In this document: piece after piece, positions 1 to 63,469 of the stretch
How the letters are laid out: every line of letters begins with the position of its first letter
Position numbering within the stretch: position 1 is the first letter of the stretch
Assembly: GCF_026151205.1 (NCBI RefSeq)
Contig: NC_087083.1
Coordinates: forward strand, 3,486,536-3,550,535
Length of the DNA: 64,000 nt
Reading direction: 5' to 3'
DNA from: Bolinopsis microptera
Taxonomy: Eukaryota; Ctenophora; Tentaculata; Lobata; Bolinopsidae
The notes under the pieces: generated by a model
Database searches by the model: none
What the model saw: the letters and a program-made list of their open reading frames with translations, nothing else
Told to the model about the DNA's origin: nothing
Made by a program: the position numbers and the translations under genes

Positions 1-3000
1 GATTCTAATGCTTCTACAGACCTACACAAGTGCAAGTAAGTAAGTAAATATTTCATGCTAGGCATGTGGCACCCATTACGGTAACCATCCATTGAGTTTT
101 TGCTTTTACCCTGTACTATAATTGCACAGCTCCCCATTTTAACCTCACACACGATTTCTCGAGCATTCGGCTGGGGTGAACCGGAGGCTGCATAGATCCT
201 ATGGGATCCTTAGCAGAACGTCGACGACGCTCACCTCACGACTAGGTAGACAGCGGGTTTCGAACTCGCAACCTTACGATTGCAAAGCTGGTGCTCTAAC
301 CAACTGCGTTACCTGGCCGTTGAAGACTCCGTACAGGCAGCCCAGCATTGTATTATTGTACTGAATGAAGACGAGTTTTCTGGTTTTGAGGTCTCCTAGA
401 TACAGAGTAACAAAGATAGAGCTGGATATCAGACTTTGTTGAGTTGATAACATCTGATATGATGTGTCTCCTAATCTCACATTATCTGATTTGTTGGTTA
501 CAATGTTTTGAGGTCTCCTAAATAATTTATTTCAGTGGTTACGGGGCGCGTATGTTTTCGTGCGGAGTATCTCACGACAGCAAACTTGGAATTGTAGGAG
601 GACACTCAGGTGCAATGATACTGGACCTAGATACGGGGGAAACGAGGATATCTGTAGATAGTGGGTGCTTCTTTACTGCATTCCTACCCAACTCTTATCA
701 GTTCGTTGTAGAGAGTAAGTATCTAGACAACCTCTCTTATCTATCTTTTAGAAATCCTATCTTTATAAACACTATCCCCTTCTTATCAACACTATATCTC
801 CTCCTTATAAACACTATCCCTCCCCCTTATAAACACTATATCTCCTCCTTATAAACACTATCCCTCCTCCTTATCAACACTATCCCTCCTCCTTATAAAC
901 ACTATCCCTCCTCCTTATAAACACTATTCCTCCTTCTTATAAACATTATCCCTCCTCCTTGTAAACATTATCCCCTTCTTATAAACACTATCCCTCCTCC
1001 TTATAAACATTATCCCTCTCCTTATAAACACTATACCTCCTCTTATAAACATTTATTCCTCATCCTTATAAACACTATCCTTCCTCCTTATAAACACTAT
1101 CCCTCCTCCTCATAAACACTATCCCTCCTCCTTATAAACACTATCCCTCCCCTTATAAACACTATATCTCCTCCTTATAAACACTATCCCTCCTCCTTGT
1201 AAACATTATCCATCCTCCTTATAAACAGTATCCCTCAACCTTATAAACACTATCCCTCCTCCTTATAAACACTATTCCTCATCCTTATAAACACTATCCC
1301 TCCTCCTTATAAACACTATTCCTCCTCCTTATAAACACTATCCCTCCTCCTTATAAACACTATCCCTCCTCCTTATAAACACTATCCCCTTCTTATAAAC
1401 ACTATCCTTCCTCCTTATAAACATTATCCCTCCTCCTTATAAACACTATACCTCCTCCTTACAAACATTATTCCTCATCCTTATAAACACTATCCCTCCT
1501 CCTTATAAACACTATCCCTCCTCCTCATAAACACTATCCCTCCTCCTTATAAACACTATCCCTCAACCTTATAAACATTTTTCCTCCTCCTTATAAACAC
1601 TATTCCTCATCCTTATAAACACTATCCCTCCTCCTTATAAACACTATTCCTCCTCCTAATCAGATGGAAGTGGAGTGTACTTGTACTCTGAAGACGGGTA
1701 GGGGATACAGTCACCAGCTTCTTCGGCCACCAGGCACAAGTAGAGACTGGTACTTTTCAAGAGGACCACCTGGTTACGGGGAGTAAAGACGGAACTGTCA
1801 GATTGTTTGATATGAAGACAGGTAAGTGGTCGAGGAGTGGGATGGAACGTTACCATTGCCCCCGGCCCCTGAACCCCAAAAACCCTTGGAACCCCCAGAA
1901 ACCTTTGGAACCCCAAAACCCCCTGAATTTTTGGCGCCCCTAAAACACTTACCTATTTCTCAAAAAAGGTCAGGTCTTTTTTATGCGCCCCTATAGTTTA
2001 TTGGACCCCCTGAGGCCTTTTGTATCCAAACCAGCTATACTATACTATACTATATATGGTAATTACTATAATACAGTTATACTATTACTATATTATATAG
2101 GGTAATTACTATAATGTAGTTATACTATTACTATATTTGACCAAACCCATAATCATGGGTAGAGTGTACCGCTGCCAGTGTCTCTCTTTTCCAAACAAAA
2201 GGAAATGATATTAATTTGAGGAACCGGTCCGCTAATGCAAAATGATACCGAGAATGAAATCGGTCGCTCGCTTTTCCCATTCGTTCACGGCTACGAATTG
2301 TAATGAAGCTTATTAAATGGGAAAAGCGAGCGACCCAATTCATTCTCGGTATCATTTTGCATTAGCGGGACGGTTCCTCAAATTAATATCATTTCTTTTG
2401 TTTGGAAAAGAGAGACACTGGCAGCGGTACACTCTACCCATGATTATGGTTTTGGTCAAATATCATTCTTTTTGATTATAATGTCAGGATAATTTACACC
2501 GTCGAAACTTCATTACATAATTATAAATAAGGAGATAATTTCAACGATTTCGATATTCTGCCTTTGAAAACTTTTTCCTTGTGTTAGGTAGGTATATCTG
2601 GTCGATAACCGACTGAATATGGCACTTTTACTCATTTAGGTTGGCATTAAATTCATTATATAATGCATTTAAATATCGTGGAAAGCAGAATATATTCGAA
2701 ATCACGAAGATGGCAAAATTCCTCACCTTTCGCACGTGCAAACTTTGAGCGGACGTTGCGTGCGCATACAATATTGAATCACCGGTAAATTTTTGCATAG
2801 TGGTATTTAATATATAGTTTGATAAGCATGCAAAGTTTCAGAAGATTTCAAAAGAACTTGGATCACAACGGGACCTCCAAAGTTGATTAAAAATCGTGAA
2901 AATAAAATTTTTAGTGATTTTAGCTATTTTAAATCAATTTGGGCGTGTCCCCACGTGTGCAACTTTTTCGATTTTCAACTTTAAAACTAGCCTATAACAC

Positions 3001-6000
3001 AATTTAGACCTTTAAAAAAGCAAATTTGAGCTCCAAAACCCCAAGGAATGGCCCTACACCAGAGAATACTATTCACAACTTTGTGTTTTTATAAAATTAT
3101 TCTTCAAAAAAGCACTAACTTCAATAGCAAATATCTTTATGAAGGAGCAAGGTAGGAAACTTTTCCGCTAGATTTTCGGAATTCTTAAACAATTATCTTA
3201 GGTAAAAATGTCCTCAGATTTTAAATAAAATTACTCCTTAATGGTGTAAAATCGATTTGAAAAGTTGTTACTTTGTCAAAAATTAAGTTTTAAAACACTT
3301 AATTGATGACGTCATCAAGTGATGATGATGACGTTAAATTATTTTTCAATACAATGTAAACTAAAGCTTAAACGATTATCTTTAAAACCTGTGGTTTCGA
3401 GATGACTGTATCGTATATACTTTTGGATCTACGGACCACCTAAATGTAGGCTACAATTGACTGCCAAAAGCGTCTATACATACATTATTATATAAGGCCT
3501 TGGTGGCCCAGTGGCGCGGCGTAGAGCCAGTAATCGCAAGGTTGCTGGATCGATACCCGCCATCGGCAAAACCAACCTTGAAGATTTGAGCCATACTGAT
3601 GAGTCCTAATAGGACGAAACACTGTGTCTATGGATAAATATGCTCGCCTAGTTTACTAGCTTGAGCACTCTAGGAAATGAATAGATCTACCGTTCAGCTT
3701 AAATGCAAAGCTTCCTAACTTGGTAATGAGTTTTGTAGAGCACTCTGGTACCTATGTAATTCCTCATTATTAAGGCCTTGGTGGCCCAGTGGCGCGGCGT
3801 AGAGCCAGTAATCGCAAGGTTGCTGGATCGATACCGCCATCGGCAAAACCAACCCTTGATGATTTGAGCCATACTGATGAGTCCTAATAGGACGAAACAC
3901 TGTGTCTATGGATAAATATGCTCGCCTAGTTTACTAAGCTTGAGACTCTAGGAAATGAATAGATCTACGTTCAGCTTAAATGCAAAGCTCCTAACTTGTA
4001 ATGAGTTTGTAGAGCACTCTGGTACCTATGTAATTCCTTCATTATTAAGGCCTTGGTGGCCCAGTGGGCGCGGCGTAGAGCCAGTAATCGCCAAGGTGCT
4101 GGATCGATACCCGCCATCGGGCAAAACCAACCTTGATGATTTGAGCCATCTGATGAGTCCTAATAGGACGAAACACTGTGTCTATGGTTAAATATGCTCG
4201 CCTAGTTTACTAAGCTTGAGCACTCTAGGAACTGAATAGATCTACCGTTCAGACTTAAATGCAAAGCTCCTAACTTGTAATGAGTTTGTAGAGCACTCTG
4301 GTACCTATGTAATTCCTTCATTATTAAGGCCTTGGTGGCCCAGTGGCGCGGCGTAGAGCCAGTAATCGCAAGGTTGCTGGATCGATACCCGCCATCGGGC
4401 AAACAACCTTGATGATTTGAGCCATACTGATGAGTCCTAATAGGACGAAACCTGTGTCTATGGATAAATATGCTCGCCTAGTTTACTAAGCTTGAGCACT
4501 CTAGGAAATGAATGATCTACCGTTCAGCTTAAAGCAAAGGCTCCTAACTTGTAATGAGTTTGTAGAGCACTCTAGGTACCTATGTAATTCCTTCATTATT
4601 AAGGCCTTGGTGGCCCAGTGGCGCGGCGTAAGAGCCAGTAATCGCAAGGTTGCTGGATCGATACCCGCCATCGGCAAAACCACCTTGATGATTTGAGCCA
4701 TACTGATGAGTCCCTAATAGGACGAAACACTGTGTCTATGGATAAATATGCTCGCCTAGTTTACTAAGCTTGAGCACTCTAGGAAATGAATAGATCTACC
4801 GTTCAGCTTAAATGCAAAGCTCCTAACTTGTAATGAGGTTTGTAGAGCACTCTGGTACCTATGTAATTCCTTCATTATTAAGGCCTTGGTGCCCATGGCG
4901 CGGCGTAGAGCCAGTAATCGCAAAGGTTGCTGATCGATACCCGCCATCGGCAAAACAACCTTGATGATTTGCCATACTGATGAGTCCTAATAGGACGAAA
5001 CACTGTGTCTATGGATAAATATGCTCGCCTAGTTTACTAAGCTTGAGCACTCTAGGAAATGAATAGATCTACCGTTCAGCGTTAATGCAAAGCTCCTAAC
5101 TTGTAATGAGTTTGTTAGAGCACTCTGGTACCTATGTAATTCCTTCATTATTAAGGCCTTGGTGGCCCAGTGGCGCGGCGTAGAGCCAGTAATCGCAAGG
5201 TTGCTGGAATCGATACCCGCCATCGGCAAAACCAAACCTTGATGATTTGAGCCATACTGATGAGTCCTAATAGGACGAAACACTGTGTCTATGGATAATT
5301 ATATACATATATATACTTCACGACAATCTGTTGTAAAAACAGGGGTTCCAGAAAACCACTTGCCGATACTGCTGAAACATGAAATTTTGTTTACAGTCGA
5401 TTTGGACAAGGTCGTAGACGCCCGCAAAGTTTCAGATCTCTTACTCAATTTTAACATGGTTTTTAAGGCACCTGAATATGGCGATTTTGTGGGTTTGTAC
5501 TTACTAATTTCCGTGTAACATGCTGGCTCGTATTTTGCGCAAATTTCTTAAAAACCTCCACATAACTATTTCTTTCTTATTCCTGTCATCTTTAACATTG
5601 AATTAGAATGTTTTTTACTTAAATATACCTGCTGAACAACTTTCGATGAGTCTTAATGCCTGGAAAACAATAAAGGGGATATAATAGTATAGGGGGTAAA
5701 TAGTATTGTGAATATAACGGCAACGGTAATGCTTGCCAGCATTGTGATTATATATGGTACCTACACACAGCTGTGGAAACTGTAATGCGCACTTTTCACA
5801 AATATTCTGCCTACTTGCAATCATGTGGAATCAATCAGAGTACCAAAGGAAAAATTGCTGGTTAGCAAACATCCAAAGATCTACCATCAACCTTGATCAT
5901 AGGTACTCAAAAGCTAGAGATAAAAAGTCGAATGTTCACGTGGTTGAGGAAGAAAAGGAGGAGGCAACTGTTTTGCCACCGCCAAGCAATACTATTTTAG

Positions 6001-13904: not shown

Positions 13905-16356
13905 AATGAGAATAGAGTAGCAGAGGCTGAGACAATTCTAGAGGAACAGAAGAGAGTAGCAGAAGCTGAGAGAGTTCTAGAGGAACAGAAGAGAGTAGCA
14001 GAAGCTGAGAGAGTTCTAGAGGAGTAGAAGAGAGTAGCAGAAGCTGAGCGTATTCTAGAGGAACAGAAGAGAGTAGCAGAAGCTGAGAGAGTTCTAGAGG
14101 AACAGAAGAGAGTAGCAGAAGCTGAGAGAGTTCTAGAGGAGCAGAAGAGACTAGCAGAAGCTGAGATAGTTCTAGTGGAAAAGAAGAGAGTAGCAGAGGT
14201 GGAGAGAATTCTAGAGAAACAGACGAGAGTAGCAGAAGCTGAGAGAGTTCTAGAGGAACAGAAGAGAGTAGCAGAAGCTGAGCGTATTCTAGAGGAACAG
14301 AAGAGAGTAGCAGAGGTGGAGAGAATTCTAGAGGAACAGACGATAGTAGCAGAAGCTGAGAGAGTTCTAGAGGAGCAGGAGAATGTAGCAGAAGCTGAGA
14401 GAGTTCTAGAGGAGCAGAAGAGAGTAGCAGAAGCTGAGCGAGTTCTGGAGGAGCAGGAGAAGGTAGCAGAAGCTGAGCGTATTCTAGAAGAACAGAAGAG
14501 AGTAGCAGAAGCTGAGCGTATTCTAGAGGAGCAGAAGAGAGTAGCAGAAGCTGAGCGTATTCTAGAGGAACAGAAGAGAGTAGCAGAAGCTGAGAGAGTT
14601 CTAGAGGAACAGAAGAGAGTAGCAGAAGCTGAGAGAGTTCTAGAGGAGCAGAAGAGACTAGCAGAAGCTGAGATAGTTCTAGTGGAAAAGAAGAGAGTAG
14701 CAGAGGTGGAGAGAATTCTAGAGGAACAGAAGAGAGTAGCAGAAGCTGAGAGAGTTCTAGAGGAGTAGAAGAGAGTAGCAGAAGCTGAGCGTATTCTAGA
14801 GGAACAGAAGAGAGTAGCAGAAGCTGAGAGAGTTCTAGAGGAACAGAAGAGAGTAGCAGAAGCTGAGAGAGTTCTAGAGGAGCAGAAGAGACTAGCAGAA
14901 GCTGAGATAGTTCTAGTGGAAAAGAAGAGAGTAGCAGAGGTGGAGAGAATTCTAGAGGAACAGACGAGAGTAGCAGAAGCTGAGAGAGTTCTAGAGGAAC
15001 AGAAGAGAGTAGCAGAAGCTGAGCGTATTCTAGAGGAACAGAAGAGAGTAGCAGAGGTGGAGAGAATTCTAGAGAAACAGACGATAGTAGCAGAAGCTGA
15101 GAGAGTTCTAGAGGAGCAGGAGAAGGTAGCAGAAGCTGAGAGAGTTCTAGAGGAGCAGAAGAGAGTAGCAGAAGCTGAGCGAGTTCTGGAGGAGCAGGAG
15201 AAGGTAGCAGAAGCTGAGCGTATAATTCTAGAGGAACAGAAGAGAGTAGCAGAAGCTGAGCGTATTCTAGAGGAGCAGAAGAGAGTAGCAGAAGCTGAGC
15301 GTATTCTAGAGGAACAGAAGAGAGTAGCAGAAGCTGAGAGAGTTCTAGAGGAACAGAAGAGAGTAGCAGAAGCTGAGAGAGTTCTAGAGGAGCAGAAGAG
15401 ACTAGCAGAAGCTGAGATAGTTCTAGTGGAAAAGAAGAGAGTAGCAGAGGTGGAGAGAATTCTAGAGGAACAGACGAGAGTAGCAGAAGCTGAGAGAGTT
15501 CTAGAGGAACAGAAGAGAGTAGCAGAGGTAAAGAGAATTCTAGAGGAGCATAAGAGAGTAGCAGAAGCCGAGAGAGTTCTAGAGGAGCAGAAGAAGGTAA
15601 CAGAAGGTGAGCGTATTCTAGAAGAGCAGAAGAGAGTAGCAGAGGTGGAGAGAGTTCTAGAGGAGCAGAAGAGAGTAGCAGAAGCTGAGAGAGTTCTAGA
15701 GGAGCAGGAGAAGGTAGCAGAAGCTGAGCGTATTCTACAGGAACAGAAGAGAGTAGCAGAGGTGGAGAGAGTTCTAAAGGAACAGAAGAGAGTAGCAGAA
15801 GCTGAGCGTATTCTAGAGGAGCAGGAAAAGGTAGCAGAAGCTGAGCGTATTCTAGAGGAACAGAAGAGTCAAGAGAGTAGCAGAGGTGGAGAGAGTTCTA
15901 GAGGAACAGAAGAGAGTAGCAGAAGCTGAGAGAGTTCTAGAGGAACAGAAGAGAGTAGCAGAGGTGGAGAGAATTCTAGAGGAACAGAAGAGAGTAGCAG
16001 AGGTGGAGAGAATTCTAGAGGAACAGAAGAGAGTAGCAGAAGCTGAGAGAGTTCTAGAGGAACAGAAGAGAGTAGCAGAAGCTGAGAGAGTTCTAGAGGA
16101 GCAGAAGAGAGGAGCAAAAGCTGAGAGAGTTCTAGAGGAGCAGAAGAGAGTAGCAGAGGTGGAGAGAATTCTAGAGGAACAGAAGAGAGTAGCAGAGGTG
16201 GAGAGAATTCTAGAGGAACAGAAGAGAGTAGCAGAAGCTGAGAGAGTTCTAGAGGAGCAGAAGAGAGGAGCAGAAGCTGAGAGAGTTCTAGAGGAGCAGA
16301 AGAGAGTAGCAGAAGCTGAGAGAGTTCTAGACGAGCAGGAGAAGGTAGCAGAAGCT

Positions 16357-18180: not shown

Positions 18181-21100
18181 ATGTTGCTGCTAATAGTTAT
18201 ACTGATACGATCTCTACATACTCTGCCCGAAAGTGAGTATTTACGCTAGTTGTTTAGTGGGTATTCTTTCCAACGATTTCAGAATATGTTGTGGATTGTT
18301 GACAAGATTATTCTTAACTGACACAAAACCGTTGCTTTTAGAGTTTAAAACTTTGTCTTGACAGCTAATTTAATTAGTTAATCAACTTCAAGGCATATCA
18401 GATATGAAAGTTTACGTGTCTAGGTGGCTGAAATCTCAACCTAATTTACCAGCAAGCAATTAATTTCTCAGAAAATAATTTAAACAGGTAACGCAAAGTT
18501 TTACCTGATCAACGGAGAGGGTGCACAAGCAACGAATGGACTTGGTGTCTTGTGGGTCCAGAAGGGCCAACTCTCGGGCCATGTTTTATTTGAAGGAAAC
18601 AAAGGATTCGATCAAGAGTGTCTGCCTAACCACATATGCCAAATGATGGGGTACCAGTTTGCAATAAGTTGGTTCTCAGATCTAAAATCCGTTCTTGACA
18701 CCAAGCGAAAGTCTATGCATGCATTTACATTCGACGATATTTTCTGTCCAGCAGATAACAACGTAACTGGTAATGCGACGTTTAAAATAAAAAAGATAAA
18801 GGAATTAACAGCTTTTTCTTCAAATATACCATCAGCCGCTGTCCTCTTCTGCGGTCCTTTTAAAGGCACTTGTCCAATCGTGGAGCGATATAATTTCCTT
18901 AAGAGAGTTTGTATTGAGGAATTGGGCTCCTTAGTATTTCAATGTCACCACTCTGACAAGCTTTACATAGCCAGACCCGGGTACCACCACTCTACATTTA
19001 ACACCGTCTGCGACAACGACCCTCATTTCTATCAAAGCTGTGGTATCAGAAATTCACTGACCTCATCAAACTCTGCTGCAATTTGTGACGAGTACGTCTG
19101 CGAAGTGAAGAAAAATACCGTCTTCCAGACGAAAGGTGTTATGTCTACCGTCACAGTTTCTTCAGCGATATTGTGCCAATTGCAATTAGACCCAGCATTT
19201 GACAATTTGCTCTATTCACAAAGCTGCTCCAATTTACCGGACAACATTTGTTCAGCAGAAAATGAAGAGGAAGATGTAGCTCATACATCTTTAACTTTAA
19301 GAAGCGGACTAACAGTGGGCAAGTCCTCAGTTTGCAATGGACGCTGTGATGGACGTAGTTGTGAGGACGAGGCTTTCTGTGGTGGCTATCTGTACGGTTT
19401 GTACTGCATTGGCTGGAAACAAAGACTCAATTACATCAAACCAAGTGAAGTGTGCGATGGGTACTCGACGTACCTGTGTCCAGATGGTGAGGACGAAAGG
19501 AACTGTCCAGAACAAGACTCCTTACCAAGGCACGAAAAATGTAGAAGGTCCACCTTTAGTTCATTCACAGGAAGACAAACTTCTTCGGTGATCCCAATTA
19601 TCAATATTACAAGGTGTGGCGCTCCATTCAGCTTTGAACTAATTGAAGTATTAGTTGACCCTGTATCAATCTGTGATAACTTTCTAGATCAAACCAACTG
19701 TACAGACCAGAGCCGTTCAACACTAACCTGTTATATCAACGGCTATCTTTCAACCATATCCAAATTTTTTGTGTGTCATGGTCAAGAGGAGGTTCCAACA
19801 TTATGTGACAACGGAATAGACCAGGTCTGTGTCAAGGTATCCCTCACCTGTGAGGTACATAAACACCAACTGTGTGACGAAATTGAAGATTGTCTGAGCG
19901 GGGCTGATGAAAACATAGCAATCTGTCGCTCCATGACAAAGAGGGTTTGTCACAGAGCTTACAAGCCCGACCAGGCATTACAAATTCCCATTGCATGGCT
20001 AAGGGATGGGGTTGAGGACTGTTTAGATGCAATCGACGAGGAGGACGTGTGGAAAACTTGTGGCATTGGTTCAACAAAACGATTCGTAGTGTCAATAGAT
20101 GAAACGTGCGAGGAGGTGTTTCTTTGTAAACATGATCAAGCAGCCTTCGTAGAATTCAAAAATATATGTGATGGGATTGATACGTCATGTGGTATTGAAA
20201 CGAATATATGTGCGAAGTCGCATAAGATCAATCCTACTTTTGACAGTGTACTGACTGTGCAGAAATCAGGTGGAGAATTGAAAACTTTGATGTATTGCTT
20301 GCCTGGTCTCGAGAGTCTGCAGGAAATAGCAAATCGTTGCGTTATCAATGAAGTTAATCTTTCGGGACTTGATGTCTTCGGAGTTCAATCCATTTTGACA
20401 ATTATCCGCCCTAACGCAATAGTTAACTGTGATCATACCTTTGGAGATATTTACGTGACTCTGAGTTGTGCAGGGTATTGTGAAGACTCAGTTTGCCCTT
20501 TGCAAAAAAAGATCCAATACAATTCTTGTCCTCAGCAACACCAAAATAGAATATACACAATTGCTGATAATAATTTCCTTTCGTTCGTGACAAAAATAGG
20601 TAATAAGTCGTACAGAAATGACTATTTTCGATGCGACAACGGTGTTTGCTTAAACTATGAACAAGTTTGCAACGTGGTCGATGACTGTGGGGATGGTTCT
20701 GACGAAATACTCTGTACTAATGTGTTTTTGTGTGATTCCAAAGACCAACTGGTCCCGATCACTGAAAAGTGTAATGGAAATATTGACTGCATGGATTTCT
20801 CAGACGAGTGTAACTTACACTGTGGCAAACAAATATTACAAAGCATTTTTCTAAAGATTTTGAGCTGGAATCTAGCTGTGCTAGCCATATTCCTTAACTT
20901 GATTTCACTCTATCGAACTCTAACCGATTTCAACAAAGAAATGTCAAAAGTGGCTATGAACAATAAGATGCTGATACTTCTCATAAATCTCGGTGATCTG
21001 CTGATCGGAGTGTATTTGATCTATATAGCAATAATGGACACAATAGTTTATGGGAGTGGATACTGCTCCGAACATATAAATTGGCTGTCTAGCGCTCATT

Positions 21101-22128
21101 GTAACATAATAGGCGTCATCAGTACGATTGGTTATGAAATGTCTCTTGTTTCCATGACAATTCTTGCCGTAACTAGGTTGGGGGTGATAAAAGATAAGAC
21201 TCGGATCAGCGAACGATTTACAAGAAGAGTCCTTTTCAAAATTAGTCTAGGTGCACTAATTATCGTCATGATTTGTATTACTATTGCAGTAATTCCTCTG
21301 GTGCCTCAATTTGAAGACTTCTTTGTCAATGGCATGACATACAGACCCTCAGTAAGACTCTTTATCGGAGCTCCCGATAAACAAATCCATCTCAGCATCC
21401 TACAGGAGTACTATGGCAAAATTAAGGGCAAAAATCTTAAATGGAGAGTGATAAATGATCTTGTTGATGGTATGTTTTCTAGTGATTATGGAGGTGATGT
21501 ACTTGGTCGAAAGAAGATTGAATTTTACGGGAATGAAGGAGTTTGTCTATTCAAGTTTTTTGTTAAAGCAGACGATCCTCAACGAATTTATGCTTGGGGC
21601 ATCCTATCATTAAACATGGTTTGCTTTTTAGTAATTTCAGTCTGCTACATTTTCATCGACAATAGAACCAGAACCACGTCAAAAGTGCTTACCCAGGGTA
21701 AAACACATACAGGTCATGAAGTAAGGAAAAGGAACAGAAGATTGCAGCGAAAAATATCGCTGATCATAGCAACGGATTTTCTTTGTTGGTTACCAGTTAC
21801 CATAGTTTCCTGTCTCCACTCGGGAGCAGTCATCGACGCTACACCATACTACTCTCTTATCTCCATAGTATTTTTACCTATCAACTCTGTAATCAACCCT
21901 ATTTTGTACAACGATTTCTCCACAACTTTATTAGAAAAAGTCAAAGAAAAATCGAAACCAGTTTTTGCTAAGAAGTGGAGAAATAAGAAAGTTTCCCCTG
22001 AACAATTTAACACTACCTGTAATTGTATCAATAAAAATGAGTGTCGCCATGATCAAGTCCAAATGATTGAGATGAAAGTTTTAAAAGCAAAAGAAAATGA
22101 TTTAACAAAGATCAGTATCGCCAAGTGA
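18181..22128 (+). CDS. LDLa-repeat 7-transmembrane receptor (class A GPCR)
   Basis: Two exons, 18181-18232 and 18488-22128, joined by a GT-AG intron of 255 bp that splits a Ser codon, give a 1230-aa protein. Exon 1 encodes a signal peptide (MLLLIVILIRSLHTLPE). A Cys-containing region of about residues 22-80 (FYLINGEG...CQMMGY) faintly resembles an SRCR domain. Several LDLa-like Cys/Asp-rich repeats follow, the clearest at about 341-358, 480-497, 732-757 and 764-794 (DDCGDGSDE). Seven hydrophobic segments lie between about 808 and 1160, with NPILY at the end of TM7 (about 1154) and TRLGVIK in place of the DRY motif after TM3. Multi-LDLa class A receptors are related to LGR/RXFP-type hormone receptors, but no leucine-rich repeats are visible here. 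It would act at the cell surface; the ligand is unknown. An AATAAA at 22340 is a plausible poly(A) signal. Confidence 0.9.
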
Positions 22129-29600: not shown

Positions 29601-32600
29601 TGACAGGTATTAGGAAAGATATTAGGACAGGTATTAGGAAAGATATTAGGACAGGTATTAGGAAAGATATTAGGACAGGTATTAGGAAAGATATTAGGAC
29701 AGGTATTAGGAAAGATATTAGGACAGGTATTAGGAAAGATATTAGGACATGTATTAGGAAAGATATTAGGATAGGTATTAGGAAAGATATTAGGACAGGT
29801 ATTAGGAAAGATATTAGGACAGGTATTAGGAAAGATATGAGGACAGGTATTTGGAATGATATTAGGACAGGTATTAGGAAAGATATCAGGACAGGTATTA
29901 GGAAAGATATTATGACAGGTATTAGGAAAGATATTAGGACAGGTATTAGGAAAGATATTAGGACAGGTATTAGGAAAGATATTAGGACAGGTATTAGGAA
30001 ATATATTAGGACAGGTATTAGGAAAGATATTAGGACAGGTATTAGGAAAGATATCAGGACAGGTATTAGGAATGATATTAGGACAGGTATTAGGAAAGAT
30101 ATTAGGACAGGTATTAGGAAAGATATTAGGACAGGTATTAGGAAAGATATTAGGACAGGTATTAGGAAAGATATTAGGACAGGTATTAGGAAAGATATTA
30201 GGACAGGTATTAGGAAAGATATCAGGACAGGTATTAGGAAAGATATCAGGACAGGTATTAGGAAAGATATCAATGTCCTACCTCTAATACAGGCTGAGTT
30301 TTAGCCATGAAGATGTTGCTGGTGGAGTCGCACTGCTCGCACCCCCCTTACCTCTAATACAGGCTGAGTTTTAGCCATGAAGATGTTGCTGGTGGAGTCG
30401 CACTGCTCGCACCCCCCTTACCTCTAATACAGGCTGAGTTTTAGCCATGAAGATGTTGCTGGTGGAGTCGCACTGCTCGCACCCCCCTTACCTCTAATAC
30501 AGGCTGAGTTTTAGCCATGAAGATGTTGCTGGTGGAGTCGCACTGCTCGCACCCCACTTACCTCTAATACAGGCTGAGTTTTAGCCATGAAGATGTTGCT
30601 GGTGGAGTCGCACTGCTCGCACCCCACTTACCTCTAATACAGGCTGAGTTTTAGCCATGAAGATGTTGCTGGTGGAGTCGCACTGCTCGCACCCCACTTA
30701 CCTCTAATACAGGCTGAGTTTTAGCCATGAAGATGTTGCTGGCGGAGTCGCACTGCTCGCACCCCACTTACCTCTAATACAGGCTGAGTTTTAGCCATGA
30801 AGATGTTGCTGGTGGAGTCGCACTGCTCGCACCCCACTTACCTCTAATACAGGCTGAGTTTTAGCCATGAAGATGTTGCTGGTGGAGTCGCACTGCTCGC
30901 ACCCCACTTACCTCTAATACAGGCTGAGTTTTAGCCATGAAGATGTTGCTGGTGGAGTCGCACTGCTCGCACCCCACTTACCTCTAATACAGGCTGAGTT
31001 TTAGCCATGAAGATGTTGCTGGTGGAGTCGCACTGCTCGCACCCCACTTACCTCTAATACAGGCTGAGTTTTAGCCATGAAGATGTTGCTGGTGGAGTCG
31101 CACTGCTCGCACCCCACTTACCTCTAATACAGGCTGAGTTTTAGCCATGAAGATGTTGCTGGCGGAGTCGCACTGCTCGCACCCCACTTACCTCTAATAC
31201 AGGCTGAGTTTTAGCCATGAAGATGTTGCTGGTGGAGTCGCACTGCTCGCACCCTCCTTACCTCTAATACAGGCTGAGTTTTAGCCATGAAGATGTTGCT
31301 GGTGGAGTTGCACTGCTCGCACCCCACTTACCTCTAATACAGGCTGAGTTTTAGCCATGAAGATGTTGCTGGTGGAGTCGCACTGCTCGCACCCCACTTA
31401 CCTCTAATACAGGCTGAGTTTTAGCCATGAAGATGTTGCTGGTGGAGTCGCACTGCTCGCACCCTCCTTACCTCTAATACAGGCTGAGTTTTAGCCATGA
31501 AGATGTTGCTGGTGGAGTCGCACTGCTCGCACCCTCCTTACCTCTAATACAGGCTGAGTTTTAGCCATGAAGATGTTGCTGGTGGAGTCGCACTGCTCGC
31601 ACCCCCCTTACCTCTAATACAGGCTGAGTTTTAGCCATGAAGATGTTGCTGGTGGAGTCGCACTGCTCGCACCCCACTTACCTCTAATACAGGCTGAGTT
31701 TTAGCCATGAAGATGTTCCTGGTGGAGTCGCACTGCTCGCACCCCACTTACCTCTAATACAGGCTGAGTTTTAGCCATGAAGATGTTGCTGGTGGAGTTG
31801 CACTGCTCGCACCCCCACTTACCTCTAATACAGGCTGAGTTTTAGCCATGAAGATGTTGCTGGTGGAGTCGCACTGCTCGCACCCCACTTACCTCTAATA
31901 CAGGCTGAGTTTTAGCCATGAAGATGTTGCTGGTGGAGTCGCACTGCTCGCACCCCACTTACCTCTAATACAGGCTGAGTTTTAGCCATGAAGATGTTGC
32001 TGGTGGAGTCGCACTGCTCGCACCCCACTTACCTCTAATACAGGCTGAGTTTTAGCCATGAAGATGTTGCTGGTGGAGTCGCACTGCTCGCACCCCACTT
32101 ACCTCTAATACAGGCTGAGTTTTAGCCATGAAGATGTTGCTGGTGGAGTCGCACTGCTCGCACCCCACTTACCTCTAATACAGGCTGAGTTTTAGCCATG
32201 AAGATGTTGCTGGTGGAGTCGCACTGCTCGCACCCCCCTTACCTCTAATACAGGCTGAGTTTTAGCCATGAAGATGTTGCTGGTGGAGTCGCACTGCTCG
32301 CACCCTCCTTACCTCTAATACAGGCTGAGTTTTAGCCATGAAGATGTTGCTGGTGGAGTCGCACTGCTCGCACCCCACTTACCTCTAATACAGGCTGAGT
32401 TTTAGCCATGAAGATGTTGCTGGTGGAGTCGCACTGCTCGCACCCCCCTTACCTCTAATACAGGCTGAGTTTTAGCCATGAAGATGTTGCTGGTGGAGTC
32501 GCACTGCTCGCACCCCACTTACCTCTAATACAGGCTGAGTTTTAGCCATGAAGATGTTGCTGGTGGAGTCGCACTGCTCGCACCCCACTTACCTCTAATA

Positions 32601-35600
32601 CAGGCTGAGTTTTAGCCATGAAGATGTTGCTGGTGGAGTCGCACTGCTCGCACCCCCCTTACCTCTAATACAGGCTGAGTTTTAGCCATGAAGATGTTGC
32701 TGGTGGAGTCGCACTGCTCGCACCCCCCTTACCTCTAATACAGGCTGAGTTTTAGCCATGAAGATGTTGCTGGTGGAGTCGCACTGCTCGCACCCCCACT
32801 TAACTCTAATACAGGCTGAGTTTTAGCCATGAAGATGTTGCTGGTGGAGTCGCACTGCTCGCACCCCCACTTACCTCTAATACAGGCTGAGTTTTAGCCA
32901 TGAAGATGTTGCTGGTGGAGTCGCACTGCTCGCACCCCACTTACCTCTAATACAGGCTGAGTTTTAGCCATGAAGATGTTGCTGGTGGAGTCGCACTGCT
33001 CGCACCCCACTTACCTCTAATACAGGCTGAGTTTTAGCCATGAAGATGTTGCTGGTGGAGTCGCACTGCTCGCACCCCACTTACCTCTAATACAGGCTGA
33101 GTTTTAGCCATGAAGATGTTGCTGGTGGAGTCGCACTGCTCGCACCCCACTTACCTCTAATACAGGCTGAGTTTTAGCCATGAAGATGTTGCTGGTGGAG
33201 TCGCACTGCTCGCACCCCACTTACCTCTAATACAGGCTGAGTTTTAGCCATGAAGATGTTGCTGGTGGAGTCGCACTGCTCGCACCCCCCTTACCTCTAA
33301 TACAGGCTGAGTTTTAGCCATGAAGATGTTGCTGGTGGAGTCGCACTGCTCGCACCCCACTTACCTCTAATACAGGCTGAGTTTTAGCCATGAAGATGTT
33401 GCTGGTGGAGTCGCACTGCTCGCACCCCACTTACCTCTAATACAGGCTGAGTTTTAGCCATGAAGATGTTGCTGGTGGAGTCGCACTGCTCGCACCCCAC
33501 TTACCTCTAATACAGGCTGAGTTTTAGCCATGAAGATGTTGCTGGTGGAGTCGCACTGCTCGCACCCCACTTACCTCTAATACAGGCTGAGTTTTAGCCA
33601 TGAAGATGTTGCTGGTGGAGTCGCACTGCTCGCACCCCACTTACCTCTAATACAGGCTGAGTTTTAGCCATGAAGATGTTGCTGGTGGAGTCGCACTGCT
33701 CGCACCCCACTTACCTCTAATACAGGCTGAGTTTTAGCCATGAAGATGTTGCTGGTGGAGTCGCACTGCTCGCACCCCACTTACCTCTAATACAGGCTGA
33801 GTTTTAGCCATGAAGATGTTGCTGGTGGAGTCGCACTGCTCGCACCCCACTTACCTCTAATACAGGCTGAGTTTTAGCCATGAAGATGTTGCTGGTGGAG
33901 TCGCACTGCTCGCACCCCCCTTACCTCTAATACAGGCTGAGTTTTAGCCATGAAGATGTTGCTGGTGGAGTCGCACTGCTCGCACCCCCTTACCTCTAAT
34001 ACAGGCTGAGTTTTAGCCATGAAGATGTTGCTGGTGGAGTCGCACTGCTCGCACCCCCATTTAACTCTAATACAGGCTGAGTTTTAGCCATGAAGATGTT
34101 GCTGGTGGAGTCGCACTGCTCGCACCCCCACTTAACTCTAATACAGGCTGAGTTTTAGCCATGAAGATGTTGCTGGTGGAGTCGCACTGCTCGCACCCCA
34201 CTTACCTCTAATACAGGCTGAGTTTTAGCCATGAAGATGTTGCTGGTGGAGTCGCACTGCTCGCACCCCACTTACCTCTAATACAGGCTGAGTTTTAGCC
34301 ATGAAGATGTTGCTGGTGGAGTCGCACTGCTCGCACCCCACTTACCTCTAATACAGGCTGAGTTTTAGCCATGAAGATGTTGCTGGTGGAGTCGCACTGC
34401 TCGCACCCCACTTACCTCTAATACAGGCTGAGTTTTAGCCACGAAGATGTTGCTGGTGGAGTTGCACTGCTCGCACCCCACTTACCTCTAATACAGGCTG
34501 AGTTTTAGCCATGAAGATGTTGCTGGTGGAGTCGCACTGCTCGCACCCCACTTACCTCTAATACAGGCTGAGTTTTAGCCACGAAGATGTTGCTGGTGGA
34601 GTTGCACTGCTCGCACCCCACTTACCTCTAATACAGGCTGAGTTTTAGCCATGAAGATGTTGCTGGTGGAGTCACACTGCTCGCACCCCACTTACCTCTA
34701 ATACAGGCTGAGTTTTAGCCATGAAGATGTTGCTGGTGGAGTCGCACTGCTCGCACCCCACTTACCTCTAATACAGGCTGAGTTTTAGCCATGAAGATGT
34801 TGCTGATGGAGTCGCACTGCTCGCACCCCACTTACCTCTAATACAGGCTGAGTTTTAGCCATGAAGATGTTGCTGGTGGAGTCGCACTGCTCGCACCCCA
34901 CTTACCTCTAATACAGGCTGAGTTTTAGCCATGAAGATGTTGCTGGTGGAGTCGCACTGCTCGCACCCCACTTAACTCTAATACAGGCTGAGTTTTAGCC
35001 ATGAAGATGTTGCTGGTGGAGTCGCACTGCTCGCACCCCCCTTACCTCTAATACAGGCTGAGTTTTAGCCATGAAGATGTTGCTGGTGGAGTCGCACTGC
35101 TCGCACCCCACTTACCTCTAATACAGGCTGAGTTTTAGCCATGAAGATGTTGCTGATGGAGTCGCACTGCTCGCACCCCACTTACCTCTAATACAGGCTG
35201 AGTTTTAGCCATGAAGATGTTGCTGGTGGAGTCGCACTGCTCGCACCCCACTTACCTCTAATACAGGCTGAGTTTTAGCCATGAAGATGTTGCTGGTGGA
35301 GTCACACTGCTCGCACCCTCCTTACCTCTAATACAGGCTGAGTTTTAGCCATGAAGATGTTGCTGGTGGAGTCGCACTGCTCGCACCCCACTTACCTCTA
35401 ATACTGGCTGAGTTTTAGCCATGAAGATGTTGCTGGTGGAGTCGCACTGCTCGCACCCCACTTACCTCTAATACAGGCTGAGTTTTAGCCATGAAGATGT
35501 TGCTGGTGGAGTCGCACTGCTCGCACCCCCCTTACCTCTAATACAGGCTGAGCTTTAGCCATGAAGATGTTGCTGGTGGAGTCGCACTGCTCGCACCCCA

Positions 35601-38600
35601 CTTACCTCTAAACCTCTAATACAGGCTGAGTTTTAGCCATGAAGATGTTGCTGGTGGAGTCGCACTGCTCGCACCCCACTTACCTCTAATACAGGCTGAG
35701 TTTTAGCCATGAAGATATTGCTGGTGGAGTCGCACTGCTCGCACCCCCCTTACCTCTAATACAGGCTGAGTTTTAGCCATGAAGATGTTGCTGGTGGAGT
35801 CGCACTGCTCGCACCCCCACTTACCTCTAATACAGGCTGAGTTTTAGCCATGAAGATGTTGCTGGTGGAGTCGCACTGCTCGCACCCCACTTACCTCTAA
35901 TACAGGCTGAGTTTTAGCCATGAAGATGTTGCTGGTGGAGTCGCACTGCTCGCACCCCACTTACCTCTAATACAGGCTGAGTTTTAGCCATGAAGATGTT
36001 GCTGGTGGAGTCGCACTGCTCGCACCCCCACTTGGTGAGGTTTCTGTCACAGTGCCCGCTGAAAATAGCAAATTCTTCTCTCCCGTGGTAGTTACCGAAC
36101 CTCAGCGCTCCCGCAAACTTCATAAACCCTTCAAACTTGCCTCCAACCAGGGTAGCGTCCGTTGTGTCGAGTATCTCTATCATCTGAATGTTTTATAGTT
36201 AGTTATAAGATACCTCAACATAGCAACTATGGTTTAAAATGTTACAATTTCTTAATGTTAGTTTCTTTCTTTCTAATTATCTTTACTTTGACATATTTAA
36301 TTATGTTTATCAAAAACAGTAGAACCTATAACAACTGACCTTGTCAAGATTAGACTTATCAAAAACAGTAGAACCTATAACAACTGACCTTGTCAAGATT
36401 AGACTTATCTAACAGTAGAACCTATAACAACTGACCTTGTAAAGATTAGACTTATCTAACATTAGAACTTATAACAACTGACCTTGTCAAGATTAGACTT
36501 ATCTAACAGTAGAACCTATAACAACTGACCTTGTCAAGATTAGACTTATCTAACAGTAGAACCTATAACAACTGACCTTGTCAAGATTAGACTTATCGTT
36601 GAATACATGATCGTCATCCACCAGGAGGAAATACTTAGTTTTTACCATCTTGAGAGCCAAGTTCCTGCAGTGTAATGTGGTAAGTTTAGTGAGTAAGTGC
36701 AGTGTGTACTGTGTAGTGTAAGAATACCTGTGAGCAGGCCGAGTTTATCACAGGTACGCCCATATATGACTAGTCTGGTTGCCTCTATTTTACACTACAT
36801 GCCTAGCGAGATGCCCATATCATCACTGTCTCCTATCATTTACTGAAGGAATGGAGCCAAGTTCCTTATGGTTACTAATGGTTACTAATGGTTACTTATG
36901 ATTATTATTTTACACTACCTGCCTAGCGAGATGCCCATATCATCACTCTCTCCTATCATATACTGAAGGAAGGGAGCCAAGTTCCTAATGGTTACTAGTG
37001 GTTACTAATGGTTACTAATGGTTACTTATGATTATTATTTGACACTACCTGCCTAGTGAGATGCCCATATCATCACTCTCCCCTATCATATACTGAAGGA
37101 AGGGAGCCAAGTTCCTAATGGTTACTAGTGGTTACTAATGGTTACTAATGGTTACTTATGGTTACTTATGATTATTATTTGACACTACCTGCCTAGTGAG
37201 ATGCCCATATCATCACTCTCCCCTATCATATACTGAAGGAAGGGAGCCAAGTTCCTAATGGTTACTAGTGGTTACTAATGGTTACTAATGGTTACTAATG
37301 GTTACTAATGGTTACTTATGATTATTATTTGACACTACCTGCCTAGTGAGATGCCCATATCATCACTCTCCCCTATCATATACTGAAGGAAGGGGTACTC
37401 TTTCATATCATCCCAAACTTCTTTTGGGTAGTCGTTAGGACCATCGTCATATGCTATTATCCTTAGATCATATCCTGTAATGTGGTATTGGTCAAAGAGA
37501 TCAGGTTAAATCATTGGACAGCATGTGAAGCATATCTCAAAAAACCGAGAGGAAACCATGGTGATACTTAGCTAAATAGTAAATGATCCCTGACCGTGCG
37601 TTTATAAGTAAGTGCTGATTGTCAGTAAATGACAAACTACAAACTACAAACCTTTTTTGTCCCTGATAGATTTAGCAAGCCTCATGACAAGGTAAGGTCT
37701 TCTCGCTGTCTTTGTTACCACGGTTACACAATCAAACACTTTCTTACATCTGACAATCATTGTTTTTGTCATTATTTTAAATTTAAGTTTTCATTCAAAA
37801 AATAATTATTCTTGATTCACATCATTATAGATTTGCCTGCGTTTATTGTATTTTTATTCGAAAATTCGATCAATTATTATATAAAAGAATCAAGAATCAT
37901 TGTACCTGATGGAAAAGAGAGGTTTTAACATCTCCACTGCTTTGACAGGGGGGTTCAGTCCGCATGCTTTAAAAGTGCATGACCCGGTTGACGGGGCGAC
38001 TGTGTCTTTGAAAGTTTTTCTCTCCGACAAGAAAACTGAAAATGTTAATCAATCAGTAACAATACTATAAATTAGCAATACTAATACAATGATTGCAATG
38101 CTAATTGTTTTTATTTCATTTAACCACTTTTTTCTATTAATATATTAACATAGTCACCATAAAATTCATACTAATCTTTTTTGAAATGTTTGTACTTTGT
38201 ATGGTAAAAATTGATAATAACATTTATTGTTATTGTTACCGGGAGTAACATTGTATTGCTATGGTAACACTAAGATTAACATTGTATTGCTATGGTAACA
38301 CTGATAGTAATATTGTATTGCTATGGTAACATTGAGAGTAACATTGTATTGCTATGGTAACACTGATTGTAACATTGTATTGCTATGGTAACACTGAGTA
38401 ACATTATATTGCTATGTTAACATTGAGAGTAAAATAATACACTAACATGATTCCTCGATAAGCTCTATTCGTGAATCCTCTTCGTGACATGGCGTCAAAG
38501 CAACAGGGACATTCAAACAGGTGAATCTATTAGATTGGCGGATATCTGTCTCTGAAATAAAAAATATTGAATTTAAAATAAACAAATAGGAGAAAAAAAA

Positions 38601-45900: not shown

Positions 45901-47801
45901 ATGAAGTGGTTGATCCTTTTCTTGTTAATAGCTGGTGTCTGCTCTGCGGAGATTACAGGTAGAAAACGGTTTACATTTATAAATAATTTAACTGCGAGCA
46001 GATTAAACTTAGACCATCAAAGCAGTCAGATATTGGAATACTTATATTTATTTTGCCACGATCGGACTAACTTGATAACAACATTTATAAGTTTAAAAAA
46101 TGTATCGTTTTAGATGAAGAAGAAATTGTGAGCCAGCCTCCAGAAGGCCCAGGAGGCCCAGGAGGCCCAGGAGGCCCAGAAGGCCCAGAAGGCCCTGGTG
46201 GACCTGGTGGACCTGGTGGACCTGGTGGACCTGGTGGACCTGGTGGACCTGGTGGACCTCCACATGGTGGACCTGGGGGACCTGGTGGACCTCCACATGG
46301 TGGACCTGGTGGACCTCCACATGGTGGACCTGGTGGACCTCCACATGGTGGACCTGGTGGACCTCCACATGGTGGACCTGGTGGACCTGGTGGACCTCCA
46401 CATGGTGGACCTGGTGGACCTCCACATGTTGGACCTGGTGGACCTCCACATGGTGGACCTGGTGGACCTCCACATGGTGGACCTGGTGGACCTCCGCATG
46501 GCGGACCTGGTGGACCTGGTGGACCTGGGGGACCTGGTGGACCTCCTCATGGTGGACCTGGTGGACCTCCACATGGTGGACCTGGTGGACCTCCGCATGG
46601 TGGACCTCCACATGGTGGACCTGGGGGACCTGGTGGACCTCCACATGGCGGACCTGGTGGACCTCCACATGGTGGACCTGGTGGACCTCCACATGGTGGA
46701 CCTGGTGGACCTCCACATGGTGGACCTGGTGGACCTCCACATGGTGGACCTGGTGGACCTGGTGGACCTGGTGGACCTGGGGGACCTGGTGGACCTCCTC
46801 ATGGTGGACCTGGTGGACCTGGTGGACCTCCGCATGGTGGACCTGGTGGACCTCCGCATGGTGGACCTGGTGGACCTCCGCATGGTGGACCTGGTGGACC
46901 TCCACATGGTGGACCTGGTGGACCTGGTGGACCTCCACATGGTGGACCTGGTGGACCTCCACATGGTGGACCTGGTGGACCTGGTGGACCTGGTGGACCT
47001 CCGCACGGTGGACCTGGTGGACCTGGTGGACCTGGTGGACCTCCGCATGGTGGACCTGGTGGACCTCCGCATGGTGGACCTGGTGGACCTCCACATGGTG
47101 GACCTGGTGGACCTCCACATGGTGGACCTGGTGGACCTGGTGGACCTGGTGGACCTGGTGGACCTGGGGGACCTGGTGGACCTGGTGGACCTGGTGGACC
47201 TCCACATGGTGGACCTGGTGGACCTGGTGGACCTCCACATGGTGGACCTGGTGGACCTCCGCATGGTGGACCTGGTGGACCTGGTGGACCTGGTGGACCT
47301 CCACATGGTGGACCTGGTGGACCTCCACATGGTGGACCTGGTGGACCTGGTGGACCTCCACATGGTGGACCTGGGGGACCTGGTGGACCTCCGCATGGTG
47401 GACCACCTGGTCGTGGACTACCTGGTCGTGGACCACCTGGTCGTGGACCACCTGGTCGTGGACCGCCCAGGCGTGGACCACCTGGTCGCGGACCACCCAG
47501 GCGTGGACCACCTGGTCGTGGACCACCCAGGCGTGGACCACCCAGGCGTGCACCACCCAGGCGTGCACCACCCAGGCGTGGACCACCCAGGCGTGCACCA
47601 CCCAGGCGTGCACCACCCCCTCACAGGTCTCCTCACAGGCCACGTCCAAGATCACCTAAGAGAAGGAGACAGAGAAGGAGAAGGATTGTTCACAGAACAA
47701 GATGTCGTAGATCTCGCCGACAAATGCTCCAGGCACGCAGATTGTTCTTCCAGCGTCTTAGACAGCGGAGGAGGGAAGCGAGGAAGAGGAGAGGGTACTA
47801 G
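45901..47801 (+). CDS. Secreted Gly/Pro/His-rich repeat protein with Arg-rich tail
   Basis: Exon 1 (45901-45958) encodes a clear signal peptide, [17 protein letters not shown] 155-bp GT-AG intron splits an Asp codon, and exon 2 (46114-47801) starts [16 protein letters not shown] preceded by TTGTTT at about 45889 may be the acceptor of a 5' UTR intron. The mature chain of about 560 residues has three parts. First come about 400 residues of [11 protein letters not shown] repeats. Next are PPGRG and PPRRG repeats. Last is a tail of about 55 residues rich in Arg (RRRQRRRR near its start). The Gly-Pro part does not keep the collagen Gly-X-Y register because the PPH unit shifts it, so a polyproline-II-type fold is more likely than collagen. 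Function unknown; matrix, adhesive or mineral-associated roles are guesses. Shadow frames through the repeat are discarded. Confidence 0.85.
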
Positions 47802-61715: not shown

Positions 61716-63469
61716 TCACGTGTGATTCTCGTGTATCTCGGGAGTGTAGGTGAGAAGTACCACCATAACCCAGCTGTGTAGCAGTAACATGTAGCCTAGT
61801 ACCATTAGCCTGGCTTGTGGGTACCTCCTAAGAAACACACCTAATCTCACACTAAACTTATCTATAGAGTTCAGAGCGTCTCTCAGTCTCTCATTCTTGT
61901 AACTAGGTCTAGAAGTTTCCACAAACCCCTCCCTCTCGACTGGCACTGAAACAGAGTTATTTCTCCTCTCAACTTGCTGTAACACTCCCTCTAATCCCTC
62001 CAGACGCAACACTAGACTACTCCTCTCACTGTTCAACCTCTCTACTTCACCCTGCTTGTTTAGCAACACCTGAACATATTGTCATAGTTACCAATATCAT
62101 CATATTTCTATAGCAACCAGTATTACGGATGATACTGAAAGCTAGATTACCGAAATTTTTGTTGATAAACAGAAAATCATTAGAATAGAAGGAGACATTT
62201 AATAAGTTTAATGCTATAAACGGTAAGATTTAACTACTGTCATTTCTAGTACCTCAGTGAGTGAGTTTATCTTGACCTCCAATTCCGAGTCACTGCCAGC
62301 TCCATTGACGACAAACCGCGCGTTACGTACAGTCTCCAGCTCAGTGCGCAGCGCGCGCACTTCCGCCGCAGAGGTAGAACGCAAAACAGTCATGTCTCTC
62401 TGACAAATTACCATCTCCTGAGAGTGTTTTCAGGGTAACAAAGTGTTGAGATCATTGCAGATCAGACAAGATATAAGACGGTTGTTCTGGTTACCTCTTT
62501 CAGTCGCGACACTATGTCTTGGTACTCAGTTAACTCGTTTTCTCTGTCTTTTGTTGCACTTTCTGCCGTTGAGCACTGCTCTAATGCTTGTTGCAGCTCC
62601 TACAATGGTATGGGATTCACAACCAACAGAAACAATATAGTGACAAGATCTGGGTAACTAGGCGGTAACTAGGTGGTAACTAGGTGGTAACTAGGTGGTA
62701 ACTAGGTGGTAACTAATGGTAACTAATGGTAACTATTGGTAACTAGGTGGTAACTAGGTGGTAACTAATGGTAACTAATGGTAACTATTGGTAACTAGGT
62801 GGTAACTAGGTGGTAACTAGGTGTTAACTAGGTGGTAACTAATGGTAACTAATGGTAACTATTGGTAACTAGGTGGTAACTAGGTGTTAACTAGGTGGTA
62901 ACTAGGTGGTAACTAGGTGGTAACTAATGGTAACTAATGGTAACTATTGGTAACTAGGTGGTAACTAGGTGGTAACTAGGTGTTAACTAGGTGGTAACTA
63001 GGTGGTAACTAGGTGGTAACTAGGTGGTAACTAGGTGGTAACTAGGTGGTAACTAGTGGTAACGTGTTTGCAAGATCTGGGTAACGTGTTTGCTTCCCGA
63101 GCCCCCTCGAGTACAGTGTACGAATAACCACCCGGTTTTCCCTTAATATATAAGTAAGTAAGTACAGTTACAGTAAATAATGAGAGCTGAGTGTTTGTTA
63201 TAGTTACCTCGCTGTGAGTTTGCTCTACACTGGTCAAATGCTCCTTCGTAATCACCAACTCGCACTTAGTCGACCTATAATAATAACACTGTTATTATAG
63301 TTCCATCAAATTTAAATAAGAAATTTGCAGAATATCATTTTGTGTTGATGTGAGAATTTATAAACTCTAACCTGAGCTCGGACTCTATCAAGTTGCGCTC
63401 TTGAATCATCATCTCCACTCCTTCGTCATCTAAAATTGAGGTATCTGCAGGGGATTTCTTTTCTTTTGC
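61716..63469 (-). CDS. GOLGA5: Golgin-84, C-terminal exons
   Basis: Five minus-strand exons join in frame: 63372-63469, 63208-63274, 62495-62599, 62253-62417 and 61716-62069; earlier exons lie beyond the window. They encode a coiled coil (EMVICQRDMTVL, NSLTEVLLNKQGEVERL, SLVLRLEGLEG) followed by the diagnostic C-terminus IDKFSVRLGVFLRRYPQAR and a single membrane anchor ending in HSWVMVVLLTYTPEIH. Golgin-84 is a tail-anchored Golgi tether involved in Rab1-dependent vesicle capture and cisternal structure. The anchor and its flanking FLRRYP motif are intact, so the gene looks functional. Its intron 62600-63207 is mostly a GGTAACTAGGT array. Confidence 0.92.
62650..63065. repeat. GGTAACTAGGT / GGTAACTAAT array in golgin-84 intron
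   Basis: About 40 copies of 10- and 11-bp units GGTAACTAGGT and GGTAACTAAT, arranged in a repeating order. Related to the GTAACC family in other introns. Confidence 0.93.

Follow-up and report, generated by a model that had tools for sequence, protein, structure and literature searches.

A tandem array of 277-bp units, each joining a Pol III-type head to a type I hammerhead ribozyme, lies in a TA-rich stretch of a high-copy repeat of the ctenophore Bolinopsis microptera. It represents a well-preserved new family of a known kind, the non-LTR retrozymes, with unusually clear insertion marks. The family is probably a non-autonomous, SINE-like retrozyme, whose RNA would be transcribed by Pol III, cut by its own ribozymes, circularised, and reverse-transcribed into (TA)n from a fixed start beside the ribozyme. 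The template is best read as circular or uncut multimeric RNA, and the data fit both alike. The fixed 3' end, the (TA)n target and the empty sites described below are new beyond the initial annotation of this DNA.

Units, head and ribozyme of the array

The window, which is the whole 64-kb stretch of DNA analysed here, contains the array as one tandem array at positions 3487-5302 in the TRF output (period 276, 6.6 copies). Splitting the array at the head gives seven head-to-tail unit starts (3494, 3772, 4047, 4326, 4601, 4880 and 5153), and the majority unit is 277 bp long with a GC content of 44.8%. The head-to-tail array of seven copies that the initial annotation had placed at 3496..5300 is borne out as 6.6 units at 3494-5302, with unit 7 incomplete; the unit length of 275 bp given there has to be revised to the 277 bp of the majority unit. 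No open reading frame (ORF) of 110 amino acids or more is listed within 3494-5302. The array thus combines the traits that define a non-LTR retrozyme, namely a type I hammerhead and tandem units of 277 bp (approximately 150-450 bp in the class), with no LTR and no ORF. The features of the locus are as follows.

3340..3486, + strand: high-copy host repeat, left half (the part in the joined query), whose TA-rich stretch is the target (joined-flank match)
3487..3494, no strand: probable target-site duplication ATTATATA, left copy, its exact edge ambiguous owing to microhomology (read from sequence, flank analysis)
3495..5297, + strand: inserted element of 6.6 units, from the head of unit 1 to TATGGATA past the seventh hammerhead (TRF, unit split, empty site)
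3494..3771, + strand: unit 1 (unit split)
3504..3514, + strand: A box TGGCCCAGTGG of unit 1 (unit split, box scan)
3548..3556, + strand: B box GATCGATAC of unit 1 (unit split, box scan)
3589..3635, + strand: hammerhead of unit 1, 35.9 bits, predicted cut between 3628 and 3629 (RF00163)
3772..4046, + strand: unit 2 (unit split)
3867..3913, + strand: hammerhead of unit 2, 35.9 bits, predicted cut after 3906 (RF00163)
4047..4325, + strand: unit 3 (unit split)
4144..4189, + strand: hammerhead of unit 3, stem I minus one base, 38.3 bits, predicted cut after 4182 (RF00163)
4326..4600, + strand: unit 4 (unit split)
4420..4465, + strand: hammerhead of unit 4, stem III minus one base, 29.2 bits (below the gathering score), predicted cut after 4458 (RF00163)
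4601..4879, + strand: unit 5 (unit split)
4696..4743, + strand: hammerhead of unit 5, loop II plus one base, 41.1 bits, predicted cut after 4736 (RF00163)
4880..5152, + strand: unit 6 (unit split)
4971..5015, + strand: hammerhead of unit 6, 34.1 bits, predicted cut after 5009 (RF00163)
5153..5297, + strand: unit 7, incomplete, stopping 8 bases past the predicted cut, just after the hammerhead (unit split)
5250..5296, + strand: hammerhead of unit 7, 35.9 bits, predicted cut after 5289, with the element ending here (RF00163)
5298..5305, no strand: probable target-site duplication ATTATATA, right copy (read from sequence)
5306..5439, + strand: high-copy host repeat, right half (the part in the joined query) (joined-flank match)

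The Rfam family RF00163 detects a type I hammerhead on the + strand of all seven units; six reach the gathering score of 34 bits and the remaining one scores 29.2 bits, in accordance with the complete type I hammerhead that had been claimed for every unit. As read from the sequence, the hammerhead has the core CTGATGA / GAAA / GTC, a stem I formed by CCATA/TATGG, a stem II formed by GTCC/GGAC, and a stem III in which two pairs and the core A-U pair are capped by a CTG loop. With regard to possible loop I-loop II tertiary contacts, GAG/AU would form an internal loop if AUUU and AAAU paired as an outer stem. A transcript of the array would be expected from these letters to cut itself into monomers that start with TATGG and end with GTGTC. 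The unit folded as a circle has a predicted free energy of -78.4 kcal/mol (z of -2.5 against 100 dinucleotide shuffles).

Units 1, 2, 6 and 7 are letter-perfect from CCATA to TATGG, matching the four intact cores of seven counted initially. Units 3, 4 and 5 each have one single-base indel between these two strands of stem I, and unit 3 has an additional single substitution just beyond stem I. The seven units differ from one another by 5 substitutions, 19 deleted bases and 18 inserted bases; the within-array counts for 14 other arrays are 0-1 deletions and 0-15 inserted bases, several of the latter as multi-base insertions, and locus L039, which was excluded from this count, is also rich in single-base indels. 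We infer that the single-base indels of the window array are mostly assembly error, so that its number of intact cores says little.

The head of the majority unit has an A box at position 11 and a B box at position 55, a tRNA-like spacing, and no such pair arose in 5000 mononucleotide shuffles. Single-base indels disrupt individual boxes, such as the A box in unit 6 and the B box in unit 7, and textbook boxes are present in two other copies (TAGCTCAGTGG in L037 and GGTTCGATTCC in L048). No tRNA family in Rfam matched the window head at E<=10, or nine loci with other copies at E<=3, and ARAGORN at its default thresholds found no tRNA in the window or in the other copies tested. At a lowered threshold, ARAGORN placed tRNA calls on both strands that were mutually contradictory, and these were disregarded. 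The tRNA-derived SINE initially proposed therefore keeps its A and B boxes at tRNA-like spacing but not its tRNA. With no tRNA homology found for the head, the boxes are the one feature that points to such a derivation, and the unit is called SINE-like here rather than a tRNA-derived SINE.

Elsewhere, the window contains a single open frame of 1214 amino acids at 18484-22128 (+ strand), with an LDL-receptor class A domain and a rhodopsin-family seven-transmembrane domain, and an exon-sized frame at 61716-62081 (- strand) matching Golgin subfamily A member 5. Two minisatellites are very long and even, one at 30279-36033 (82 copies of a 70-bp unit, 98% matches) and one at 48836-52256 (62 copies of a 55-bp unit, 96% matches), and repeat-built open frames run over minisatellite DNA at 14028-15929 and 46071-47801 (both + strand).

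Genomic copies, common 3' end and target

The host genome as searched comprises 264.65 Mb in 232 contigs. Four of six fetched glutamate-receptor loci were compared with solved structures: the Mnemiopsis receptor ML032222a is the best match of L066 and a lower-ranking match of L065, vertebrate kainate receptors lead the six matches of L067, which do not include ML032222a, and L068 has no match at E<=1e-60. On their own, these comparisons make a ctenophore host likely. A DNA search gave at least 85 matches to unit 1 (40 of 74 candidates scored), all of them on thirteen contigs of 15.2-26.2 Mb except one, on contig C70. A hammerhead-core pattern requiring CTGATGAG, CGAAAC and GTC, which ribozymes with other letters would escape, has 78 exact matches in the genome against 0 for the reversed pattern, and 0 in viral contigs. 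By eye the 78 form one family, and 62 of them are identical over 33 bases in our own count of the listing. The search for further copies revealed dispersed single, partial and multi-unit ones. For the copy analysis 34 genome regions were fetched, and approximately 17 of the 78 core places lie outside them. At L032, an insertion of approximately 3 kb with inverted ends (tagtacagacagatccgtctg; 1407-4373) splits a retrozyme array.

The hammerhead is the most conserved part of the unit. Over 69 matched pieces, from which the window, L039 and matches under 90 positions were left out, the substitution rate is lowest in the hammerhead (1.1%), followed by the spacer (2.5%), a 14-base link (4.9%) and the head (6.3%). 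The pieces are related by ancestry, which makes p-values for these rates unreliable, but the order of the regions is clear. The stems are nearly invariant across the fetched copies, and the genome-wide loss of conservation in stems I-III that the initial annotation had named as evidence against its reading is not seen in them.

Units are far more alike within an array than between arrays: their divergence is 0.8% within (63 pairs) and 4.4% between (905 pairs), and a within-array value this low did not occur in 2000 label shuffles. Of the 15 arrays taken, 10 had sufficient overlap between their units to contribute to the 63 pairs, the window accounting for 21 pairs and L031 for 15; elements without two units were left out, as were L039, the second copy in L041, L047, L054, L055, L062 and others. 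Position 183 is an A in all six assessable window units and a G in the other arrays compared, L039 aside. The arrays at L033, L034, L035 and L036 each have variants common to their assessable units, some of which recur in more than one array. The array at L031 is a mosaic in which two of six units carry the head of another subfamily; because it mixes two sequence variants, one monomer circle cannot give this array.

A common 3' end, TATGGAT, located 7 nt past the predicted cut, terminates 36 of the 40 elements in the fetched loci, a list from which one internal piece of the split array at L032 was left out. The 24 bp that follow this end consist of at least 60% TA/AT dinucleotides in 23 of the 36 elements, a level reached by 9 of 900 control windows drawn from these loci. 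Some loci look duplicated (the two copies in L040, L047/L048, the two in L061, L063/L064 and L041/L055 are probable duplicates of one insertion each), so the 36 are not all independent and represent closer to 30 separate insertions. The 5' ends vary among copies, with aligned lengths of 98 to 1816 nt, and the elements as a whole show the fixed 3' end and 5' truncation of SINEs. The 5' ends are also non-uniform (Rayleigh p of about 0.01, n=30), several of them, including those of the long arrays of the window and L033, falling at 272-275, near the expected Pol III start.

The flanks of the window array, when joined, match an uninterrupted host repeat in all 40 scored places (274-291 bp) of 1797 candidates. 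Since they match as one piece, the array either entered the TA-rich stretch of a high-copy repeat in a single insertion or expanded at this site later. Target-site duplications are TA-rich and often ambiguous, with a few long and exact ones (for example, at L033 and L059); together with the empty sites, they mark a retroelement-type insertion.

Proposed insertion mechanism and candidate enzyme source

The preferred reading accounts for these marks as follows. Pol III would probably start at the internal A and B boxes and, because the majority unit is devoid of a TTTT terminator, read through several units. The hammerheads would cut this RNA into 277-nt monomers (5'-UAUGG ... GUGUC>p), and a host ligase would circularise them. 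The reverse transcriptase of another element would then nick a (TA)n tract, and the nicked TA end could prime on the A/U-rich AUAAAUAU after stem I, producing insertions that end with TATGGAT(A) beside TA. Copying would run once or several times round the circle, or along the uncut multimer, and would halt at varied points, leaving 5'-truncated pieces or arrays such as that of the window. The sequence ATAAATAT, which overlaps the 3' end and continues past it in unbroken units, resembles the TA target, and pairing of the nicked TA end would therefore explain both the fixed end and the target. Counted against this reading are the four elements without the common 3' end (L039, L042, the second copy in L054, and L058), the 13 of 36 elements below the 60% TA mark, the TA stretches that host repeats contain of their own, one TTTT in unit 1 of the window (at 3731), and the minimum-energy fold of the isolated ribozyme, which differs from the catalytic fold.

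The position of the 3' end, 7-8 nt beyond the cut, implies that a cleaved linear monomer ending with GTGTC cannot be the template unless it is rejoined. A more specific version of the reading, which we rate as less likely than not, regards the array as the frozen product of target-primed reverse transcription on circular ribozyme RNA, with the nicked (TA)n pairing with AUAAAUAU and a Penelope-like enzyme doing the copying. As AUAAAUAU is joined to the ribozyme only in uncut or rejoined RNA, the ribozyme would in this case both make the circle and sit beside the start site.

A template consisting of a linear, uncut multimeric Pol III transcript, with reverse transcription beginning beside the last hammerhead, appears doubtful. 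It would suit the mosaic array at L031 and the long arrays at L033 and in the window, whose 5' ends fall at 272-274, close to where Pol III is expected to start; arrays copied from arrays would also remain homogeneous, and unprocessed RNA is the dominant in vitro substrate of a Penelope-like element of the anole (PMC11167929). However, the ribozyme is the most conserved part of the unit, a trait not easily accounted for if its cutting did nothing but destroy templates, and the AT-rich ATTATTAA at the unit end could draw 5' junctions by microhomology with TA, which makes the cluster at 272-275 ambiguous. The conservation of the ribozyme thus leans to circles, and the L031 array and the 272-275 starts lean to uncut multimers. 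Amplification at the DNA level after a short insertion, by unequal crossing over or rolling-circle DNA and with the ribozyme as a satellite passenger, is improbable as the source of the arrays: near-identity of units within arrays would agree with it, as would the abundance of other kinds of tandem repeats in the window, but copies agree in their 3' end and TA-rich flank whether they are single, partial or multi-unit, head and spacer are less conserved than the ribozyme, and the many dispersed short copies would be left unexplained.

In the reading of a retrozyme inserted by reverse transcription, the enzyme has to come from another element, and the candidate partner is a Penelope-like element with the same kind of target. 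The genome has at least 147 GIY-YIG matches (150 of 524 candidates scored), many in long ORFs and apparently of at least three types. In the commonest, type A, 18 of 19 fetched loci have one common 3' end, small variants allowed, and TA-rich DNA adjoins this end in 17 of 18. Compared with L079, the main match is at 98.7-99.7% in 15 of 18 type A loci and at 84.7-94.9% in three, and a few of the loci overlap or adjoin; the copies are so alike that activity was probably recent. The type A ORF has a GIY-YIG domain near its C terminus (E of 3.2e-07). It matched no reverse transcriptase family in Pfam at E<=10 and no solved structure at E<=1, and it contains LRDDIYMAW and KPSDTHCYL, which we take to be reverse transcriptase-like motifs. 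The precomputed domains of the 71 unnamed relatives found, where given, are PF26215, PF28514 and PF01541. The 3' ends of types B and C are outside the fetched pieces. Two of the GIY-YIG types appear to continue well beyond the domain, as do Penelope-like elements that carry it at the front, such as Naiad.

The same host repeats carry the retrozyme in one place and type A in another, at a TA stretch (repeated flanks and the four elements without the common 3' end were left out of this comparison). Retrozyme and type A adjoin, with TA between them, in four loci, L044, L096, L041 and L055, the last two apparently representing a single event. A head-to-head chimera of retrozyme and Penelope-like element, considered at C12:3413023, was rejected, as a TA stretch lies between the two elements, and two separate insertions explain the pair. 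Nothing beyond chance was found in common between the sequences of type A and the retrozyme (matches at E of 0.5 or worse). A hammerhead pattern found no hammerhead in the type A pieces seen, the short 5' piece at L091 being read by eye; a conserved antisense pattern match in the 3' region of type A shows no stem II and was rejected as a hammerhead. Type A pairs lie head to head at one locus (L073/L089) and at L080, with 3' ends outward and a TA-rich stretch between, and at C4:8051350 a ribozyme core and a type A GIY-YIG match lie approximately 700 bp apart in opposite orientations.

There is close to an even chance that a LINE or another retroelement supplies the enzyme instead of type A, the common TA-rich target being a coincidence in a genome where TA tracts are frequent in host repeats. 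The lack of common 3' sequence between type A and the retrozyme would fit such a source, and the enzyme comparison covered GIY-YIG elements rather than LINEs, with 3' ends seen for type A only. Against it, type A and the retrozyme are both found at TA stretches, sometimes of the same host repeat, and the Penelope-like enzyme described in PMC11167929 starts internally in RNA and cuts AT-rich DNA. If the candidate partner is the right one, priming of a circle on (TA)n by a Penelope-like enzyme would supply the step that the published retrozyme cycle lacks, and genome copies alone would suffice to read it.

Relation to known systems

Hammerheads in the SINE-like elements Sm-alpha and Sj-alpha of schistosomes were reportedly described by Ferbeyre in 1998. 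The combination of a tRNA head and a hammerhead, which the initial annotation had not recognised, is indeed known: Sm-alpha elements are SINEs derived from tRNA-Gln-TTG that carry hammerheads (PMC2770079). The non-LTR retrozymes of metazoans, in which type I hammerheads recur in tandem units of 150-450 bp (Cervera and de la Pena 2020, PMC7229834), could according to a review count as a novel SINE family (PMC7761336). In the published model, a reverse transcriptase copies the circles into multimers, Penelope-like elements being strong candidates for this role (PMC7229834, PMC7761336), and the return to DNA requires a properly primed circle recognised by the reverse transcriptase (PMC7229834). 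The anole Penelope-like enzyme starts at an internal point of its RNA and favours AT-rich DNA; in vitro, ribozyme cutting is not needed and mainly unprocessed RNA is used (PMC11167929).

In the mostly open-access literature searched, supplements aside and as far as the texts were accessible, no description of a fixed 3' end or a (TA)n target of retrozymes was found. A search of this literature for hammerhead ribozymes in ctenophores gave one paper, whose passages deal with another element; the family may extend retrozymes to that phylum. How animal retrozymes re-enter DNA is an unproven step, and the present family makes it directly testable: it is compact, its fixed end lies next to the ribozyme, its target is simple and TA-rich, empty sites are available, and a Penelope-like family that looks recent is found at targets of the same kind.

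The family resembles the metazoan non-LTR retrozymes in its tandem type I hammerhead units of 150-450 bp with a GC content under 50%, in target-site duplications when present, in a monomer predicted to be self-paired, and in the presence of Penelope-like elements in the same genome. It differs from them as described in having a Pol III-type head (neither SINE nor polymerase III occurs in the text of PMC7229834) and in the fixed 3' end and TA-rich target defined here. With Sm-alpha and Sj-alpha it has in common a SINE-type unit, a tRNA-type head and a hammerhead (PMC2770079). The hammerhead-bearing Penelope-like elements (PMC11167929) likewise form tandem or partial-tandem insertions in an AT-rich target and end inside the RNA sequence rather than at the cleaved 3' end; unlike Penelope-like elements, the window retrozyme is non-coding. 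The retrozyme ends 7-8 nt past the cut, compared with a start approximately 85-92 nt past it for the anole Penelope-like element, as computed from the positions +26 and +111 to +118 in PMC11167929.
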